Source: Actinacidiphila sp. DG2A-62
Lineage (GTDB): Bacteria > Actinomycetota > Actinomycetes > Streptomycetales > Streptomycetaceae
Direction: 5' to 3'
Length of the DNA: 64,000 bases
NCBI RefSeq assembly: GCF_035825295.1
Contig: NZ_JAYMGI010000002.1
Location: forward strand, 1,714,001-1,778,000
Each line of letters opens with the position of its first letter. The first letter of the stretch is position 1. The notes below the pieces were generated by a model. The model was not told the DNA's origin. It ran no database searches and was given only the letters and a program-made list of their open reading frames with translations. Position numbers and translations under genes: made by a program. Positions 30,087 through 39,398 of the stretch are shown piece after piece.

Positions 30087-31271
30087 CTACAGAGGCAGGC
30101 CCACGGCGTCGGCCAGCACCCGCATGCGAGGAGTCAGTGTTCGACGTCGCGCGATCACCTGCGTCAGGATGTCTCGCGCATACTGCTGGTGCGGAAGCCA
30201 CTGCGGCGCGGCGTGCCAGACCTGCTCCAGGGTGTCCACCGCCTCGCCGTACTTCCGCAGCCTCACCCGGGCGGCGGCCTGGTCGAGCCGGTTCCGGTTC
30301 AGGTTGTTCGACGTGGGCCGCAGCCCCTCCCACGAGATCGCGGCGGACAGCTGGAGCACTCGGTCCGGCTGGTCGGCGACCATCGCGTGCTCGGCCGCCT
30401 TGAGCTGCACGGTCGTGGCCCCGAACGCCCGCAGGAACCCGCCGGGCACTGGCCGGGGGCCGATCGCGGCGGCCGCCGATCCGGCCAGACGCAGCATCCG
30501 GTCGGCGTCGCCCGGGCGGGCATCGCGGTCTGCCGCGGCGGCCGAGCGCAGCAGTAGCCATCCCCATGCGGCAAGTTCTCCGGGCGTCGCTCGCGACATA
30601 CGCGGTTCTACGCGGTCGGCCCATTCCTCCGCCAGCCGACCCGCCTCGGCGATGCGGCCACGACGCAGCAGCAGCCACCCTTGGGTGCTCACCACGGCGG
30701 CAGCGTCCAGATCGTCGCGGGCGTGGTCGACGGCGCGGCTGAGGGCGGCCTCGGCCGCGTCGAACTGCCGGGTCTGGGTGAACATCCAGCCGACCAGGCC
30801 GAGCAACTCGGCCTGTACCCGGCGGCCGGTCGGTTCGTCCGCCACGACCGCGGCGTCCCTCAGCAGGACCGGCATCACAGTGGCGAGCTGCTCCAGCCGG
30901 TCCGCGGCGGCCAGCGGCATCGCGGCGGCCACCGCCGCTCGGACCCCGGCCACCGTCGGCGTGTCATCGGCAGGTCCTGGTGCGGGAGCGTCGAGGGCCG
31001 CCCGCACCGGGGCCCACTGATCCACCACGGCGGGCGACGCACCGGCCGTCTCGTAGGAGCCGCCCAACAGCCATGTCGTGGATACGCCCAACGATGCGGC
31101 CAGGGCGCGCGCTGTCTGCGCGCGCGGCTGCCCGTAGTCGCCCTGCTCGATCTTGCGCACGGCGGAGAGGGACACGCCGGACTCGGTTGCGAGCTCACGC
31201 TGGCTCAACCCGCGCCGTTTGCGGGCTCGGTGGAGTCGACCGCCGATACCCGTGTCGGTGGGGTGGGACAT
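30087..31271 (-). CDS. XRE-family regulator with TPR-like C-terminal domain
   Basis: 394 residues. An N-terminal helix-turn-helix (RGLSQRELATESGVSLSAVR, about residues 19-38, then KIEQGDYGQP) is followed by a long Ala/Leu-rich alpha-helical region with TPR-like periodicity (FDAAEAALSRAVDHARDDLD; EAVDTLEQVWHAAPQW), an architecture of regulators that sense peptides or partner proteins. ATG 31271 has GAGGTGG upstream; the longer frame is not supported. Divergent from the secreted I36-like gene across 217 bases that contain a 16-bp dyad, and followed by the ATP-binding protein gene. Confidence 0.86.
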   Translation of the reverse strand: MSHPTDTGIGGRLHRARKRRGLSQRELATESGVSLSAVRKIEQGDYGQPRAQTARALAASLGVSTTWLLGGSYETAGASPAVVDQWAPVRAALDAPAPGPADDTPTVAGVRAAVAAAMPLAAADRLEQLATVMPVLLRDAAVVADEPTGRRVQAELLGLVGWMFTQTRQFDAAEAALSRAVDHARDDLDAAAVVSTQGWLLLRRGRIAEAGRLAEEWADRVEPRMSRATPGELAAWGWLLLRSAAAADRDARPGDADRMLRLAGSAAAAIGPRPVPGGFLRAFGATTVQLKAAEHAMVADQPDRVLQLSAAISWEGLRPTSNNLNRNRLDQAAARVRLRKYGEAVDTLEQVWHAAPQWLPHQQYARDILTQVIARRRTLTPRMRVLADAVGLPL

Positions 31272-31380
31272 ACTTCTGCCACCTCTGTCTCGGCCTGGAC
31301 ACTCGACACGGTACAGCGGGGCCGCCGCCGGCGCTGCCGGCGGTCTGCGGCATGGCTCCCACCTGCGGGAATGCGGTTCC

Positions 31381-31396
31381 CCTGTCATATGTCAGG
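31381..31396. promoter_or_regulatory. Candidate operator: interrupted palindrome in the XRE/I36 divergent region
   Basis: CCTGTCATATGTCAGG is symmetric at 14 of 16 positions (CCTG-N-CATATG-N-CAGG). Its A+T centre stands out in this GC-rich DNA. It lies 110 bases before the XRE start and 93 bases before the I36-like start, as expected for an autoregulated regulator controlling both. A second short dyad ACCGTCGACCTACGGT lies at about 31420-31435. Confidence 0.45.
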
Positions 31397-31488
31397 AGCG
31401 CGGCGCCCCGGGTTCCTCCTACCGTCGACCTACGGTGCTGACGACTGGTCAGGCAGTCATCGGCAGACCGACAACGGAGGAAAGAACC

Positions 31489-31863
31489 ATGCGCAAGCTC
31501 ACCAGGGCCGTCTCGGCCCTCGCCGTCGCCGCGGCGGCCGCCGCCGCCGTGACCCTCGGCTCCGGCCCGGCGCAGGCCGCCGACGGGTCGTGGGACGGGT
31601 GCCCGTCGGGCGCGGTCTGCATCTACGGCGAAGGCGTCCACGACAACCTCACCACGCCGACCGACGTCTTCTGGAGCTACGGCGCCCACAACCTCAGCGG
31701 CCAGTACAACTGGCACTGGGTGCTCAACAACCAGACCGGCGGCGCCCACGCCCACCTGTGCCTGGGGTCGAACGGCGCCAACTGCACCTACGACCTGGCC
31801 GCGCAGCACGGCGTCTGGGCCGATCTCACGCCGGTCAACTCCATCACGCTCGACCGGCCGTGA
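31489..31863 (+). CDS. Secreted peptidase inhibitor I36-like protein
   Basis: 124 residues. A Sec signal peptide (MRKLTRAVSALAVAAAAAAA, cleavage likely after AQA near residue 30) precedes a small beta-rich domain. The pattern CPSGAVCIYGEG is typical of the I36/SMI (beta-gamma-crystallin-like) secreted proteins of streptomycetes; two further cysteines (C-L-G...C-T-Y) could form a second disulfide. The type protein inhibits metalloproteases, but most members are uncharacterised. ATG 31489 follows GGAGGAAAG, a very strong ribosome site, suggesting high expression. Divergent from the XRE gene. Confidence 0.85.
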   Translation: MRKLTRAVSALAVAAAAAAAVTLGSGPAQAADGSWDGCPSGAVCIYGEGVHDNLTTPTDVFWSYGAHNLSGQYNWHWVLNNQTGGAHAHLCLGSNGANCTYDLAAQHGVWADLTPVNSITLDRP

Positions 31864-32067: not shown

Positions 32068-34017
32068 TCAGGCGGAGGTGTAGTCCGCCATGTTGCGGTG
32101 GACCTTGTCGACGTAGGGCTGGAGGCGGGCCGGCACTCCGCCCGCGTCGACGATGGTGCGGACGCTGGTGCGGTAGGCCGCCGCGGTCAGCGCGGGCAGG
32201 TCGCCGTGCATGCCGTCGGCCTTGAGCTGCTCGTCGATCCAGCACAGGTACGCGCCCATGGTGGCGATGGCGTCGGGCGGCGACATGTAGTCCTTCCTGC
32301 CGTCGTGGTCCCCGTCCACCGCCCACGCGTCGAAGACCCGCGGGGTCCACATGGCGATGCCGTACTCGTCGGTGCTCGGGCGGCGGGCCCGCGCGTCGAA
32401 GCCGCTCTCGGCCCCCAGCATGGCGGCGATCAGCACCGGGGTGACCTCCTCCTGGACGCACATCCGGGCGGCCTGCGAGATGTACGGGCGCAGCGCGGCG
32501 GGCACGTCGGCGTGGGCGGGCAGCGCGCCGGCGAGCGGGGCCAGCCGGGAGGCGGGGGTGGCGTGCGCGGCCCGGGGCGGGGAGCCGCCGGACCCGGTCG
32601 CTCCCCCGTCGCCGCCGGTGAACGCGAACGCGGCGGCGACCGCCGCGGCGGCCACGACCGCGAGGGCGGCCGGCAGCAGCACCCGGCGCCGGGTCCGCGG
32701 GGCGGCGCGGGCGAGCGGCCCCGCCGCGCGTAACGCGAGGCCAGCGGGAGCCGCCAGGTCCACCGGGCCTGCCGGGCCGGCCGGACCCGCGAGGTCCGCC
32801 TGGTCCGCCGAGCCAGCCGGACCTGCCGGGCCCGCGAGGTCCACCGGGTCCGCCGGGTCCGCCAGGGCGACCGGGCCCACCGAGCCAGCCGGGTCCGCCA
32901 GCTCGGCGACGCGCGCGACCAGCCGCTCCGCGGTCAGCCCGGCCCGGCCGGCGTGGTCGGGGGCCAGGCACGCGGCGATCAGCTCCCGCCATCCTTCGGC
33001 GAGTCCGGGCGCCAGCCGCAGCGGGGCCGTGCCGCGCGCGTAGGACTGGGCGGCCAGCGCCCGCGCCCGCGCGGTCGCCCCGGGGAACGGGTGCAGGCCG
33101 CCGGCGAGCACCTGGTGGGCCACCACGCCGTACGCCCAGATGTCGCCGGTCGGGCGGACGGCGGTGCCGCGGCTTCCGGTGCGTTCCGACCACCACTCGG
33201 GCGGCATGTGGTCCAGCGTGCCCATCGGCGGCACGTAGGCGTGGGTGCCCTCCAGCTCGGTGGTCAGGCCGAAGTCGGCGAGCCACACCTCGTCGCCGGG
33301 GCTGAGCAGGATGTTGGCGGGCTTCAGGTCGCCGTGCAGCCAGCCCTCGGCGTGCAGGTGGGCCAGTCCCGCGGCGGCCCCGCGCAGGATGCGCGCGGCG
33401 CCGGGCACCGGTCCCCGCGCGGCGGCGCCGCTGCCCCCGGGCCCCCCGGGGGCGCCCGCGGTCGCCTCGGCGGCGTCCAGCAGGTCCTGGACGCTGTGTT
33501 CCGCACGGTCCATGACCAGGACGACCGCGCCGTCCAGACCGGGACGGTCGGGATCGGCGACGGTCAGCGACGCGTGGGTGCGTACCAGGTGCGGATGGCG
33601 GGCGGCCAGGCTGAACCGCACCTCGCGGCCCACGATCTCGTCCAGGGCCGCGCGGCGGCCGGGCGTCAGGGCGGCGGCGCCGAGGAACTTCAGCGCGGCC
33701 CGCCCGCCGGCGCCGTCCTCTGCTGCGTACACGCTGCCCCAACTGCCCGAGCCGATCGGCCCGGTGACCGTCCAGTCCCCGACGCGGTACCCGTCGGGAA
33801 CCTCGACCGGCGCCCTGCCCGGCGCGCCGGGCCTCGGGGCGGGAGCGGGCGTCGCGGCACCGGGGGTCGCGGCACGAGGCGTCGCGGCACGAGGCGTCAC
33901 GGCACGAGGCGTCACGGCGCCGGGTCGCGAAGGCCCGGCGCCGGAGGGATCGCTGCCGGAGAGCGCGCGACCGGAAGGATCGCGGCCGGGAAGACCGCCG
34001 CCAGAAGGCTCGGGCAC
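32068..34017 (-). CDS. Ser/Thr protein kinase fused to an extracellular lytic-transglycosylase-like domain
   Basis: 649 residues in three parts. (1) A Ser/Gly/Pro-rich leader, then a kinase domain at about 75-370: P-loop [10 protein letters not shown] (89-98), K110 in AALKFLG, catalytic loop [11 protein letters not shown] (228-238), DFG at 248-250. The usual HRD arginine is glycine, so it is a non-RD kinase. (2) An Ala/Gly/Pro/Asp linker and one membrane helix (about 446-467). (3) An outside domain of about 180 residues with the transglycosylase-like glutamate E537 in [14 protein letters not shown] and [10 protein letters not shown]. It could sense or cut peptidoglycan and signal inward. ATG 34017 starts four bases from the end of the FHA gene, so the two form an operon. 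Whether part 3 is catalytic is unproven. Confidence 0.9.
33849..33923. repeat. Five 15-bp tandem repeats in the kinase leader
   Basis: Units like GCGTCGCGGCACGAG start at 33849, 33864, 33879, 33894 and 33909. They encode the [10 protein letters not shown] five-residue repeats in the N-terminal leader of the kinase. In-frame length variation is likely; the Thr residues could be phosphorylated, but nothing shows that. Confidence 0.75.
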
Positions 34018-34020
34018 GGC

Positions 34021-34893
34021 TCACCCCTCCCACGCGCAGGGGCGGGACCGCGGCGGCAGCAACGCCAGGTGCTCCTCCCTGACCAGGTCGAAGCGGAGCG
34101 CGAAGGCGACGAGTTCCTCGCGCTTGCCGCCGGCGAGCGCGCCGGACCCGCCCGCGTCGCCGCCGCCCGCGAGGTCGTCGCGCAGCCGCAGCTTCACCGA
34201 GGCCAGGTAGTCGATGTGGTAGTTGACCGCCGAACGCGTCAGGTCCGCGCAGGAGTCCAGGCCGCGCAGCCGCTCCAGCACGCCGCCGACGCCGGGCACC
34301 GCGCCGGTCGAGGCGTTGCGCAGCCGCGGCTCGCACAGCGCGAGCAGCACCAGGAAGTACTTGGACGTCGGGTCGAGCGCGAACGGCATCGTGGTGCGCT
34401 CGCCGCCGGCGGCGGCCTCCTCGCGGGCGTCCGGGTGGTCGTCCTGGTACGCGTGCTGCGGCGCGAACACCTTGAACGACGCGTCGGCGGCGTGCGCGGG
34501 CAGCAGCACCCGGGAGAACTCGAACGGCACGGGCGCGCCCAGCCGCCCCGGCGCGACCTTGATGTGCTCGCCCGCGCCCTCCATGTTCTCCACCACGTAC
34601 GTGGCGGTGCGGCTGTAGTTGGACAGCCGCCAGTAGTCCTCCGCCGCGGCGATCCGCCCGGCGCAGCGCGAGACGCCCGGGTCGTCGAGCCTGACCGGCA
34701 CCGGGCTGCCGGGGGCGCCCCGGCCGAAGTCGGCGGTCTCCCCCGGGCCGAGTTTCAGCAGCCGTGGCCGGCGCGACGCCGTACCGCCGCGTCCGGGGCC
34801 CGTGCCGGCGCCGGCGACGTCGCCGGGCCGCTCAAGCACGCCGCCGCGGCGGGTGCCGCATTCCTCCGGTAGTTGAACGATGACCGTGTCCAT
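34021..34893 (-). CDS. FHA-domain protein with C-terminal winged helix
   Basis: 290 residues. An FHA fold is suggested by DFGRG (55-59), GVSRCAGRI (73-81) and WRLSNYSRTATYVVENMEG (88-106), which carry the Arg, Ser and Asn positions that bind phosphothreonine. The C-terminal third (about 170-245) looks like a winged helix (PTSKYFLVLLALCEPRLRN; LTRSAVNYHIDYLASVKLRL). Such a layout reads a phosphorylation event and could act on DNA or another protein. ATG 34893 with GGGGGATGG upstream is preferred to a longer frame. It is the first gene of a pair with the membrane kinase-transglycosylase, the obvious candidate for its kinase. Confidence 0.8.
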   Translation of the reverse strand: MDTVIVQLPEECGTRRGGVLERPGDVAGAGTGPGRGGTASRRPRLLKLGPGETADFGRGAPGSPVPVRLDDPGVSRCAGRIAAAEDYWRLSNYSRTATYVVENMEGAGEHIKVAPGRLGAPVPFEFSRVLLPAHAADASFKVFAPQHAYQDDHPDAREEAAAGGERTTMPFALDPTSKYFLVLLALCEPRLRNASTGAVPGVGGVLERLRGLDSCADLTRSAVNYHIDYLASVKLRLRDDLAGGGDAGGSGALAGGKREELVAFALRFDLVREEHLALLPPRSRPCAWEG

Positions 34894-36218: not shown

Positions 36219-37218
36219 TCACCGGGCCACGGTAGACCTTTCGTCGCCCCGGTCCGCATCCAGGGCCTCGGCGGCGCGCTCGGCGCGGCGGGATGCGGCC
36301 AGGCTGGTCGCGGTGGTCACGGCGAGGACGGCGACGATCACCGCGAGGGAGACCGGCACGGAGATCTGCGGCACGTGCACGCCGGACTCGTGCAGCGCGT
36401 GCAGCAGCAGCTTGACGCCGATGAAGCCGAGGATCACCGAGAGTCCGTAGGACAGGTGGACCAGCTTCTTCAGCAGGCCGCCGATGAGGAAATACAGCTG
36501 CCGCAGTCCCATCAGCGCGAAGGCGTTCGCGGTGAAGACGATGTACGGGTCCTCGGTGAGCCCGAAGATCGCCGGGATCGAGTCGAGCGCGAAGAGCACG
36601 TCGGTGGTGCCGATGGCGAGCATCACCACGAGCATCGGCGTCATCAGCCGGCGGCCGTTCTCGCGGACGAACAGCCGGGTGCCGTGGTAGCGGTCGGTGG
36701 ACGGCACGCGTCGCTCGACCGCCTTGAGCAGCCGGTTCTCCTCGTATCCGGCGTCCTCGTGGCCGGTGCGGGCCTCCTGGATCAGCTTCCACGCGGTCCA
36801 GATCAGGAAGGCGCCGAAGAGGAAGAAGACCCAGGAGAAGGCGGCCAGCACCGTCGCGCCGGCCGCGATGAACACCGCGCGCAGCACCAGCGCTATCAGC
36901 ACGCCGACGAGCAGCACCCGCTGCTGGTAGGCCGCGGGCACCGAGAACTTCGCCATGATCAGCACGAAGACGAAGAGGTTGTCGACGCTGAGGGACTTCT
37001 CGGTGACGTCGCCGGCGAAGAACTCGCCCTGGCTGCCCGCCGCCGAACACCAGCAGGCCGACGCCGAACAGCCCGGCCAGCGCGACCCAGACGGCCGTCC
37101 AGATCCCGGCTTCCCGCACCGACACCTCGTGCGGCGTTCGGCCGACCAGGAAGTCGGCGCCGATCAGGGCACACAGTCCCGCGATGGTGAGCGCCCAGAG
37201 GGTGAGGGAGACGTCCAC
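36219..37218 (-). pseudogene. terC: TerC/Alx-family membrane protein, +1 frameshift
   Basis: Membrane protein of the TerC family (tellurite resistance and metal homeostasis; Alx relatives export manganese). From GTG 37218 (GGAGG upstream) the frame gives VDVSLTLWALTIAGLCALIG and VWVALAGLFGVGLLVFGGG; the remainder (EFFAGDVTEKSLSVDNLFVF, KFSVPAAYQQRVLLVGVLIA, LFALDSIPAIFGLTEDPYIV) is in another frame ending at 36219. Removing one base of the CCC at 37036-37038 joins them as GGGSQGEFFAG, giving about 332 residues, the usual length. The acidic membrane motifs DNLF and ALDSIPA are intact, so decay is not evident. The neighbouring TerD genes suit the family. Confidence 0.9.
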
Positions 37219-37364: not shown

Positions 37365-39398
37365 TTACTGGGGGCGGCCCTGGCCGGCCGGGCGGGCCGC
37401 GGCGAGCCGGCGCAGCACCTGCGCGAGCACCTGGCTGCCGGCCGGCAGCTGCGCGGGCTCGTAGGTCCAGGCGTGCCCGACCCAGGGGTCGGCGAGGTGG
37501 TCGCTGGGCAGCGGGGTCAGCCGCAGCATCGACCGCCGGGGATCGGCCGCGGCGGCGGCCTGGTACGCGTCGAAGCCGGAGCCGTCCGCGGCGCTCTCGT
37601 CGCGCTCGGCCACCAGCAGCAGGTGCACCCCGGCCGCCGGGCCCTCGTCGGCTAGGTAGCGCAGCTGATGGACCGCGCGCTCGTCGAAGCCGTAGGGGTA
37701 CTCGTTGACGATCAGCAGCAGGCGGGCGGTGTCGAAGCCCGGCGGCAGCGCGTCGGCCGCGCCGCCGCGCAGCGCCATCTGCAGCAGGTCGACCCGCTCG
37801 ACCAGGCGGTCCAGGACCTCGCCGACCCCGGCGGCGCCCGGTGCGGGCGGCGGCAGCGGCAGCGCCCCGCCCGCGTACAGCGGCGCGAACGAGGCGGCGC
37901 CGGAGCCGGCCGGGTCCAGGACGTGCAGCGCGTAGCCGCCGGCCGGGTGCGAGGCGAGCAGCCGGGCGGCGAGGGCGACCGCGGCGTCCGTCGCGGCGCG
38001 CGGGTCCTCGCTGCCGTCCATCCACAGGCCGCGCTCCATCGGCAGCCGGGACAGCAGCGGGATGCGCAGCTCGGGCGCCTCGGGCAGGGTGAGCGAGCCG
38101 ATCCGCACGGCGTACGGCGGCTCCTGGGGCGCCTGGTAGGCGTGCCAGCAGGGGTTGTCCCAGCCCGCCAGCGACGGCGGCAGCGCGGGCTCCACCACCT
38201 CGGCCTCGGCGGTCAGCTGGGCGAGGTCGCGGTCGAGCACGGCACGGGCCTGGTCGACCAGCGCCATCTGCCGGAACTGCGCCTCCTCGCGCGCCGCCTC
38301 GGCCTGCGGTCCGCCGCGGGTGCGCGGGTCGGCGAGCAGGCGGTCGAGATCCTGTTCGTACCGCGACTCCGCGAAGTCCACGGCGCTGCGGTACGCCGCG
38401 ACGCTGCGGGTCAGGTCCTCGAACATCCCCCAGACCTGGTTGTACAGCCGCTCGTCCATGCTCCAGCCGGCGGCGTCCCCCGCGACGGGGGCGGGCGGCG
38501 CGCCCGCGCCGCCGGAGGCACCGGGGCCGGTGGGGCCGCCCGGCGCGGCGGTGGGCCCGGGTATCGGGCCGGGAGGCGTGGGGGCGGCCGGTGTGGCGGC
38601 GGGACCGGCCGGTCCGGCGGCCGGGGGCGCGGACGGGGGCGCGGACGTGCGGCGGCGCGGATGCCGGTAGTCGATGCCGGCGGAGGCACCGGCGCTGGGG
38701 GGCGGCGCGGGCGCCGGCCGGGGCGGCCCGGGGTGGTCGGGAGCGGGCGTCGGCGGCGGATGGGCGCCGGGGAGCGCGGACCGTGCCGGCCGGGGCGGTG
38801 CGACGGCGCGGGACTGTTCGTGCTCGGTGGCCCGGTGGATCAGCGCGGCGGTCGCGTCCGGCTCGGGGGCCCGCTGGTCGGCGAGCAGCGCGGGCAGCCC
38901 GCCTTCGTAGCCCTGGCCGACGGCGCGGACCCGCCAGCCGCCCTGCCGCCGGTACAGCTCCAGCGCCAGCAGCGCGGTCTCCGCGCCGAGGCCGCCGATG
39001 GCATAGCCCGCGGCCTCGGCGCCGTCCGGCGTGGTGACGGCCAGCCGCGGCACGGGCGCGGCGCCGAAGACGGCGGGGCCCGGGCGGCCCGGGGGCAGCG
39101 CGAGCAGCACGTGCACGCGGTGCACACGCTCGGGCATCGCGCCGAGGTCGACCGCCAGCCGGTGGTCGGCGGCGGCCTGCCGGGGCACTTCGACGCCCGG
39201 CAGCCGCGGCGCGCCGGGGTGGGCGAGCCAGCCGTCCCCGGCGGGCGACGCGGCCGCGTCCGGCCCGGTCACCGCCGCCCTGCCCTGCTCGTCGCCCAGG
39301 GTGATCGCGGCCACCACCGGGGTGCCCGCGGCGACCCTGATCTCCAGTCGGGTGCCCGGCAGCGGGTGGTTCTGCCCGCGGACCAGTTCGGCCGTCAT
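37365..39398 (-). CDS. Long TerD-family protein with degenerate ATPase-like C-terminal domain
   Basis: 677 residues. Residues 1-170 are a TerD-like domain (LVRGQNHPLPGTRLEIRVAA; GAETALLALELYRRQGGWRV; VGQGYEGGLPALLAD). About 195-325 is a long Pro/Ala/Gly linker; 325-430 is charged and helical, possibly coiled coil. The last 225 residues resemble the C-terminal half of FtsK/HerA-type ATPases (RLLLIVNEYPYGF where a Walker B is expected, then AGVHLLLVAERD), but the place of the P-loop reads WMDGSEDPRAAT without GK(S/T). So it probably does not hydrolyse ATP. Ter proteins act in tellurite and stress-linked membrane complexes. It follows the classical TerD gene. Confidence 0.82.
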   Translation of the reverse strand: MTAELVRGQNHPLPGTRLEIRVAAGTPVVAAITLGDEQGRAAVTGPDAAASPAGDGWLAHPGAPRLPGVEVPRQAAADHRLAVDLGAMPERVHRVHVLLALPPGRPGPAVFGAAPVPRLAVTTPDGAEAAGYAIGGLGAETALLALELYRRQGGWRVRAVGQGYEGGLPALLADQRAPEPDATAALIHRATEHEQSRAVAPPRPARSALPGAHPPPTPAPDHPGPPRPAPAPPPSAGASAGIDYRHPRRRTSAPPSAPPAAGPAGPAATPAAPTPPGPIPGPTAAPGGPTGPGASGGAGAPPAPVAGDAAGWSMDERLYNQVWGMFEDLTRSVAAYRSAVDFAESRYEQDLDRLLADPRTRGGPQAEAAREEAQFRQMALVDQARAVLDRDLAQLTAEAEVVEPALPPSLAGWDNPCWHAYQAPQEPPYAVRIGSLTLPEAPELRIPLLSRLPMERGLWMDGSEDPRAATDAAVALAARLLASHPAGGYALHVLDPAGSGAASFAPLYAGGALPLPPPAPGAAGVGEVLDRLVERVDLLQMALRGGAADALPPGFDTARLLLIVNEYPYGFDERAVHQLRYLADEGPAAGVHLLLVAERDESAADGSGFDAYQAAAAADPRRSMLRLTPLPSDHLADPWVGHAWTYEPAQLPAGSQVLAQVLRRLAAARPAGQGRPQ

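Follow-up and report, generated by a model that had tools for sequence, protein, structure and literature searches.

The nearest working model, by analogy, for the gene pair described here would be the PknH-EmbR system of Mycobacterium tuberculosis. According to PMC9239209, the gene of the FHA protein EmbR lies upstream of the kinase gene in one operon, and the FHA domain is essential for the interaction of EmbR with PknH and for its phosphorylation by this kinase; EmbR is built from an N-terminal winged helix of the OmpR type, a BTAD domain and a C-terminal FHA domain. A second related group is formed by the PASTA kinases (PknB, StkP and PrkC), which are also membrane Ser/Thr kinases with a wall-facing domain, in their case one that senses peptidoglycan fragments (PMC7286690). 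The extracellular domains of bacterial kinases are described as diverse (PMC12077195), and the extra domains reported on them include SH3b, PQQ, solute-binding and others, with PQQ kinases found in Streptomyces among other cases (PMC1262709).

The window (the whole stretch of DNA that was analysed, 64,000 nucleotides) is part of an 8.6-Mb actinobacterial genome. The pair consists of an FHA gene, with an ATG start at 34893, and a kinase gene with a GTG start (table 1), and the adjacency known from PknH-EmbR is found here as well. The stop codon of the FHA gene is placed 3 bases upstream of the GTG; the initial annotation was right in setting the FHA gene upstream of the kinase, and its spacing of four bases has to be corrected to three. 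The position of GGAGGGG within the end of the FHA gene suggests that translation of the kinase may be coupled to that of the FHA gene. In the compared loci, 96 out of 178 FHA reading frames have a start of the type [MVL][DE]T[VI]IVQ, and the FHA and kinase genes overlap by 4 nt in 84 of the 127 compared pairs, when start codons are picked by a crude ribosome-site rule. The same 4-nt overlap is seen in two annotated Streptomyces plasmid copies of the pair; none of the other records in a set of 72,556 plasmids matched. An FHA-kinase fusion was rejected, as the plasmid match annotated as a kinase is in fact an FHA gene of its own, which shares 4 nt with the kinase gene.

Table 1. Features of the FHA-kinase gene pair in the window (A1, 29 rows, is a more diverse alignment set than A2, 43 rows)
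Feature	Positions	Strand	Basis or remark
FHA-domain protein, 290 aa	34021..34893	(-)	coordinates include stop; family conservation and structure
FHA R58 (GR motif)	34720..34722	(-)	invariant in A2 (43 rows), at least 90% in A1 (29 rows)
FHA S75 (first of SxxH, here SRCAG)	34669..34671	(-)	invariant in A2, at least 90% in A1
FHA N92	34618..34620	(-)	invariant in A2 and A1
Ribosome-binding-like GGAGGGG	34024..34030	(-)	inside the end of the FHA gene, 6 bases before the kinase GTG
Membrane Ser/Thr kinase with transglycosylase-type outer domain, 649 aa	32068..34017	(-)	Pfam and sequence
Kinase N-terminal tail repeats, including five Ala-x-Thr-Pro units before the kinase domain	33848..33989	(-)	sequence
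Hanks-type kinase domain, residues 84-361, catalytic residues intact	32935..33768	(-)	Pfam and conservation
Degenerate 9/36/45-base repeats encoding a Gly/Pro/Ala/Asp-rich linker from kinase domain to membrane helix	32740..32901	(-)	
Predicted transmembrane helix, residues 446-464	32626..32682	(-)	hydropathy
Outer domain, predicted lytic-transglycosylase fold, residues 500-649	32071..32520	(-)	structure prediction and comparison
E537, catalytic Glu position (ES motif)	32407..32409	(-)	alignment
M556-W557 in GIAMWTP, GLMQ position; Gln-Phe in NlpC/P60-linked transglycosylases	32347..32352	(-)	alignment
R616 in AAYRTS; Asn (AYNAG) in NlpC/P60-linked transglycosylases	32170..32172	(-)	alignment

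By its Pkinase score (5.6e-27, 95.2 bits against a Pfam cut-off of 31.7) and its catalytic residues, the kinase can be placed among the Hanks-type Ser/Thr kinases. In detail, the Lys and the alpha-C Glu are both present in all 146 related kinases, the ten commonest variants of HxDxKxxN (139 of the 146 rows) retain H, D, K and N, and the third motif is DFG in 115 and DFN in 31 cases. A single transmembrane helix is predicted, preceded by RTRRR, and the outer domain would lie outside the membrane. The Pkinase match and the predicted outer fold together support the earlier proposal that one chain joins an inner Ser/Thr kinase to an outer fold of the lytic-transglycosylase type. The same proposal held that no PASTA repeats occupy the sensor position, which agrees with the absence of any Pfam PASTA family match in the kinase and with the PknB_PASTA_kin model, which reaches 55.5 bits against a cut-off of 450, i.e., the protein does not belong to the PASTA kinases. 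It differs from them further in its single head of transglycosylase fold, in the paired FHA gene and in a head that varies among close relatives.

The likeness of the kinase to PADLOC kinases (mad6 at 1e-35 and many PD-T4-6 matches, among the best 25 of 32 families) could be taken to indicate an anti-phage or conflict module. Nevertheless, these matches fall mainly on the kinase domain, a part common to any Hanks kinase, the FHA protein has no PADLOC match, and MAD6 scores 60.7 bits, far under its curated cut-off of 460. A role in defence is considered very improbable and was set aside, the matches being chiefly to the kinase domain.

The FHA protein is predicted to adopt the FHA beta-sandwich fold, with modest model confidence and weak Pfam evidence. 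The fold is contained within residues 1-147 and the C-terminal half is helical in the model, whose mean pLDDT is 54.9, with low confidence in the C-terminal half. In the Foldseek search with this model the first 14 rows are all FHA; the comparison with 3gqs gives Z 12.4 (rmsd 2.5, 100 residues aligned) and that with EmbR (2fez) Z 11.2 (rmsd 2.7, 96 aligned), and the structure matches include FhaA and GarA. Contrary to the domain order of EmbR, the FHA domain comes first and there is no BTAD match. Pfam gave no match at E<=0.1 for the protein of the window, and at E<=1 it assigned FHA to 3 and Yop-YscD_cpl to 10 of 29 family members, the latter being what we take to be an FHA-like fold. When the phospho-Thr residues of FHA domains are defined as GR, SxxH and N(G) (PMC1262709), the His of SxxH is Gly here and the Gly following the Asn is not kept.

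The protein had also been described as an FHA/winged-helix protein. The FHA part is upheld by structure comparison; the winged helix is not, given the low-confidence C-terminal model and the missing HTH family match. Pfam found neither an HTH nor a BTAD family in the protein of the window, the 29 members have no HTH family match at E<=1 either, and solved structures searched by profile returned no usable match for a winged helix. DNA binding by the C-terminal half is a putative assignment. The protein could instead act without touching DNA, as an adaptor similar to GarA or FhaA which, upon binding phospho-Thr, blocks an enzyme or brings in wall proteins. The HTH-negative result for the 29 members, the poor C-terminal model and the presence of FhaA and GarA among the structure matches all favor such an adaptor, whereas the order of the C-terminal helices and the alignment of this half with distant actinobacterial relatives (L208-L210, with L209 and L210 being HTH-like) give a helix-turn-helix look, an impression without a significant score. 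We regard the adaptor as a possibility of considerable weight, albeit short of probable.

The outer part of the kinase (residues 476-649, 174 residues) was modelled at a pLDDT of 89.5. At the sequence level, SLT_2 of Pfam is just under the cut-off (3.7e-05, 23.5 bits against 24.3) and SLT clearly under it (0.015, 15.3 bits against 21.3). In structure comparisons, Foldseek against the PDB returned lytic transglycosylases with probability 1.00 and a best E-value of 1.9e-3, and VIA-align placed the model on MltF (4oxv) with Z 17.1 and rmsd 2.8 over 136 aligned residues. The best 50 VIA-align rows consist of lytic transglycosylases together with a chitinase, a g-type lysozyme, a transglycosylase from a phage and an entry for a T7 core protein; all of them presumably belong to the lysozyme-like superfamily. 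In the predicted model, the domain thus has the lytic-transglycosylase (SLT/GH23) fold; the wall-facing lytic fold that had been supposed for the sensor position is borne out as a prediction, and with high confidence for residues 476-649. The outer domain of PknH is not known to have a transglycosylase fold.

The published SLT signature consists of ES, GLMQ and AYNAG (PMC8517470). The domain of the window has the ES motif with its Glu and lacks both the Gln of GLMQ and the Asn of AYNxG. E537 is invariant in all 44 rows of alignment A3, and among 99 kinase heads (identical sequences and kinase-locus matches of <=60 bits being left out, and head L107, with the same motifs out of frame with its own kinase, being counted separately) the catalytic Glu is kept in 96 and absent in three. 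The Gln is replaced in all 99 (Met 76, Arg 15, Gly 6, Leu 2) and always followed by Trp, and the Asn is replaced in all 99 too (Arg 92, His 3, Asp 3, Ala 1). The same head occurs on 13 proteins with an N-terminal XRE-type HTH and a membrane stretch assigned by eye; in these, the Glu, an Arg at the Gln position and the following Trp are all fixed, and the Asn position holds Arg in 10, Glu in 2 and Gln in 1. On the other side, 12 out of 12 secreted-looking homologues linked to NlpC/P60 retain Glu, Gln, Phe and Asn alike. These 12 enzymes and 12 of the 13 HTH heads are 24 hand-picked stretches (L224-L247) among the matches listed, the 13th HTH head being L110. The likeness to NlpC/P60 refers to a DCS[GS]L motif in 12/12, which we take to be of the NlpC/P60 type, and secretion was judged by appearance. 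Cys520 and Cys592 are each retained in 96 of the 99 kinase heads and in 12/12 of the NlpC/P60-linked enzymes, and since the enzymes have both, the two Cys are uninformative on a receptor function.

In a tree of 77 heads, in which kinase-locus rows were thinned to every fifth and long branches were flagged by the program, the heads split from the NlpC/P60-linked enzymes at 100/100 and the HTH heads are nested among the kinase heads. The domain resembles GH23/MltB-MltF-type lytic transglycosylases in its predicted fold, in the catalytic Glu position and in a DGDxDG loop, present in 63 of the 99 kinase heads, and differs from them in the replaced Gln and Asn and in its membrane anchor, which joins it to a kinase or an HTH domain.

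The initial annotation had left it undecided whether the domain would bind or trim glycan. Binding is favored on these motifs, because the Gln and the Asn are replaced in 99/99 kinase heads and the same head is carried by HTH proteins. We read the changes as the conversion of a lytic enzyme to a receptor that still has its cleft. What weighs most against this reading is the retained Glu, which could mean activity. The domain would then be an active lytic transglycosylase tethered to the membrane, which cuts under control from inside through phosphorylation by the kinase or which makes its own muropeptide signal. The Glu kept in 96/99 kinase heads and 13/13 HTH heads and the intact predicted fold speak for an enzyme; the loss of Gln and Asn from all 99 kinase and 13 HTH heads, the three kinase heads without Glu, the existence of other heads on the same cassette and the sharing of this head with HTH proteins speak against it, and we consider an active enzyme unlikely.

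Within Streptomycetales the pair is conserved. Comparison with three same-genus genomes gives identities of 84-85% for the FHA protein, 76-78% for the kinase domain and 75-78% for the outer domain, which proves that both genes are coding, and a chance overlap of reading frames is ruled out by this conservation. In a fourth same-genus genome (G075) the values are 85% for FHA and 77% for the kinase, the contig ending inside the latter. Close FHA relatives are found in Actinacidiphila alni (L113, 83%) and in Streptomyces sp. (L111, 85%; L112, 84%), and S. lincolnensis (L140), S. albus (L123) and K. aureofaciens (L135) are among the laboratory strains with the pair. Within the family, 105 of 249 genomes contain the FHA gene and 101 the kinase (E<=1e-50); the FHA gene is present in all 101 kinase-bearing genomes, and the kinase in none of the 144 genomes without the FHA gene (E<=1e-50). 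In four genomes (G006, G063, G078 and G231) the FHA gene occurs without this kinase, and in the first three another Hanks kinase follows it (L051, L052 and L057, of which L051 was checked with Pfam). The FHA gene was also found in 95 of 197 genomes of the order sample and in 12 of 396 of the phylum sample, nine from the same family and three distant; at one distant locus (L208) a kinase lies directly downstream of it.

Adjacency was counted in loci chosen for holding an FHA gene (L031-L109, L111-L190 and L208-L222), with FHA matches under 60 bits (L209 and L210) left out. A kinase on the same strand within 1.5 kb accompanies 147 of the 165 FHA genes away from contig ends, four times a kinase of another type. 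For the 167 distinct FHA domains, this kinase is downstream on the same strand in 140, upstream in 3 and on the opposite strand in 1, another kinase is downstream in 4, and 2 are at contig ends. The remaining 17 of the 167, all away from contig ends, lack a kinase within 1.5 kb, which shows that the FHA protein can exist without this kinase, and in 4 of these 17 loci a kinase is located farther away (1.5-4.7 kb). The conserved linkage of the two genes, expected from the outset, is thereby confirmed. A conserved third gene was rejected: in 62 loci with full flanks, only FHA (62/62) and kinase (58/62) are near-constant, apart from overlapping or antisense frames. A neighboring secreted-looking protein with sub-threshold family matches recurs in 30 of the 62 and other neighbors in fewer, as counted in genomes that are related and not independent.

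The outer parts of the kinases vary. For 147 distinct kinase domains, the classes, defined by simple sequence patterns, are transglycosylase-type (99), SH3-like (23), I36 (14), PG_binding_1 (3), PQQ (1), short (5, i.e., contig ends or early stops) and other (2, L078 and L107, apparently frameshifted). I36, PG_binding_1 and PQQ_2 were each above the Pfam cut-off on one representative. The SH3-like head, for which Pfam gave no usable match, is an unnamed Cys-containing domain called so by eye. The PQQ case (L100) is a weak member of the cassette, because its FHA gene is 1.5 kb away on the other strand. In the kinase tree of 97 rows (a quick tree with SH-aLRT support only and kinase-locus rows thinned to every fourth), one clade of 31 (SH-aLRT 100) combines 14 transglycosylase, 14 I36 and 3 PG_binding_1 heads; two of the eight changes in this tree are owed to rows L078 and L107. 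Heads are also shared with other proteins. HTH_31 was confirmed in both tested proteins with HTH and transglycosylase head, and the SH3-like head is found on an HTH protein (L252, HTH_31 3.8e-14) and on small membrane proteins beside a sigma-factor gene (L259, Sigma70_r4_2 1.2e-13). Judged by these comparisons, the constant part is the FHA-kinase cassette, and the outer head, which varies among relatives, is plug-in sensor-like.

The company of heads bears on the ligand. I36 is peptidase-inhibitor-like and the SH3-like heads contain Cys, and the transglycosylase-type head could sense a protein (an inhibitor, a competitor lysozyme or a wall-bound peptide) in place of wall glycan. Against this stand the PG_binding_1 heads of the same kinase clade and the fold of the head itself, which is a glycan-cleft fold; a protein ligand appears improbable.

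Given that the variety of outer domains is already known, head variation as such is less novel and the system is not categorically new. What is new here is one cassette bearing several kinds of outer head. The word "transglycosylase" is absent from the main text of PMC1262709, and no kinase-transglycosylase fusion appeared among the literature titles listed, an open-access scope in which absence weighs little. Head exchange on a constant FHA-paired cassette and head sharing with HTH proteins were not met in the literature consulted. The XRE-HTH/membrane/transglycosylase-head proteins would fit the class of transmembrane transcription regulators (TTRs) as described in PMC10269533, and a TTR head common to a kinase-FHA relay was likewise not met in that body of literature.

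The gene pair, its conservation, the folds, the motif changes and the head variation are observed by sequence or prediction; as to topology, ligand class, phosphotransfer, FHA docking and DNA contact, we infer the following. The kinase would be fixed in the membrane, with its outer lytic fold docking on wall glycan, a muropeptide or something similar without processive cutting. Ligand binding may alter the association or spacing of the kinase subunits and switch the inner kinase on. The FHA protein, produced together with the kinase if translation is coupled, would use its FHA domain to dock on a phosphorylated Thr of this kinase or be phosphorylated itself, and would relay the signal further into the cell, with DNA or RNA polymerase as the probable target of its C-terminal half. 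A two-gene phospho-relay of the EmbR/PknH kind with an exchangeable outer head, in which the present head is a wall-glycan receptor derived from a lytic enzyme, is the reading we hold to be moderately probable. The relay is to be taken with caution, because EmbR was phosphorylated in vitro and its phosphorylation was not detected in vivo (PMC9239209).

At a wider scale, and with our confidence evenly balanced, the loci may reflect a widespread design of Streptomycetales built on a common pool of exchangeable heads, which serves a constant kinase-FHA cassette and, independently of it, membrane HTH proteins and probably partners of sigma factors. The pool would include a lytic transglycosylase turned receptor, with the Glu kept, GLMQ changed to GIA[MR]W and AYNxG changed to AYRTS/A. 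To our knowledge, the signals of bacterial Ser/Thr kinases are largely open outside the PASTA kinases, and a wall-cutting fold reused as a receptor would point to a testable ligand class. The variation of the heads provides natural chimeras for testing how a head drives the kinase. If the FHA protein binds DNA, the pair would form a compact, kinase-based equivalent of a two-component system. The interest of the pair lies more in the plug-in family than in one unusual protein.

The FHA gene of the pair is not always followed by a window-type kinase. At three homologous loci (L051, L052 and L057), a different Hanks kinase is located downstream of it, and these kinases have an unrelated outer domain (GGCTAW...CVWQQ) in common. 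No kinase was found in the stretch retrieved around the window-type FHA genes of L126, L132, L144, L158, L164, L186 and L050. The FHA protein may have partners other than the kinase. The order is inverted in L053, L060 and L072, with the kinase gene first and the FHA gene second, and the catalytic Glu of the head is replaced by Gln or Ala in L053 and L072. FHA-kinase pairs are also carried by two linear Streptomyces plasmids (NZ_CP109060.1 and NZ_CP108712.1; L263 and L264), where one of the two FHA proteins is annotated as a 'serine/threonine protein kinase', probably a misannotation.

Among the 62 loci with full flanks, a secreted-looking protein of ~450 residues is found near the pair in 30, with all its family matches below the cut-off. 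Neither the TerC-family nor the TerD-domain gene of the window is recurrent in at least six of these loci. The small window protein shows an I36-type likeness by eye, and a Pfam search of it gave no match.

Genes in the vicinity of the pair and of an SH3-like head
Feature	Sequence	Position	Strand	Remarks
Small protein	Window	31195-31863	+	Apparent signal peptide, 'CPSGAVCIY'; convergent to kinase gene
TerC-family membrane protein	Window	36219-36965	-	Upstream of pair
TerD-domain protein, 677 residues	Window	37365-39398	-	Upstream of pair
Secreted-looking protein	L156	10367-11695	-	
Secreted-looking protein	L119	10293-11648	+	
Genes of SH3-like-head/sigma-70-family neighbourhood	L259	1501-2703 and 2076-2780	-	

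Heads are also borne by proteins other than kinases. In L259, L257 and L260, small single-pass membrane proteins with an SH3-like head are adjoined by a sigma-70-family gene (family search covering L259), the head being placed as if on an anti-sigma factor. Thirteen sequences (L224, L225, L227-L235, L238 and L110) combine an N-terminal XRE-type HTH and a membrane stretch with a transglycosylase-type head as on the window kinase; these are probably membrane-anchored one-component regulators, sharing their sensor with the kinase.
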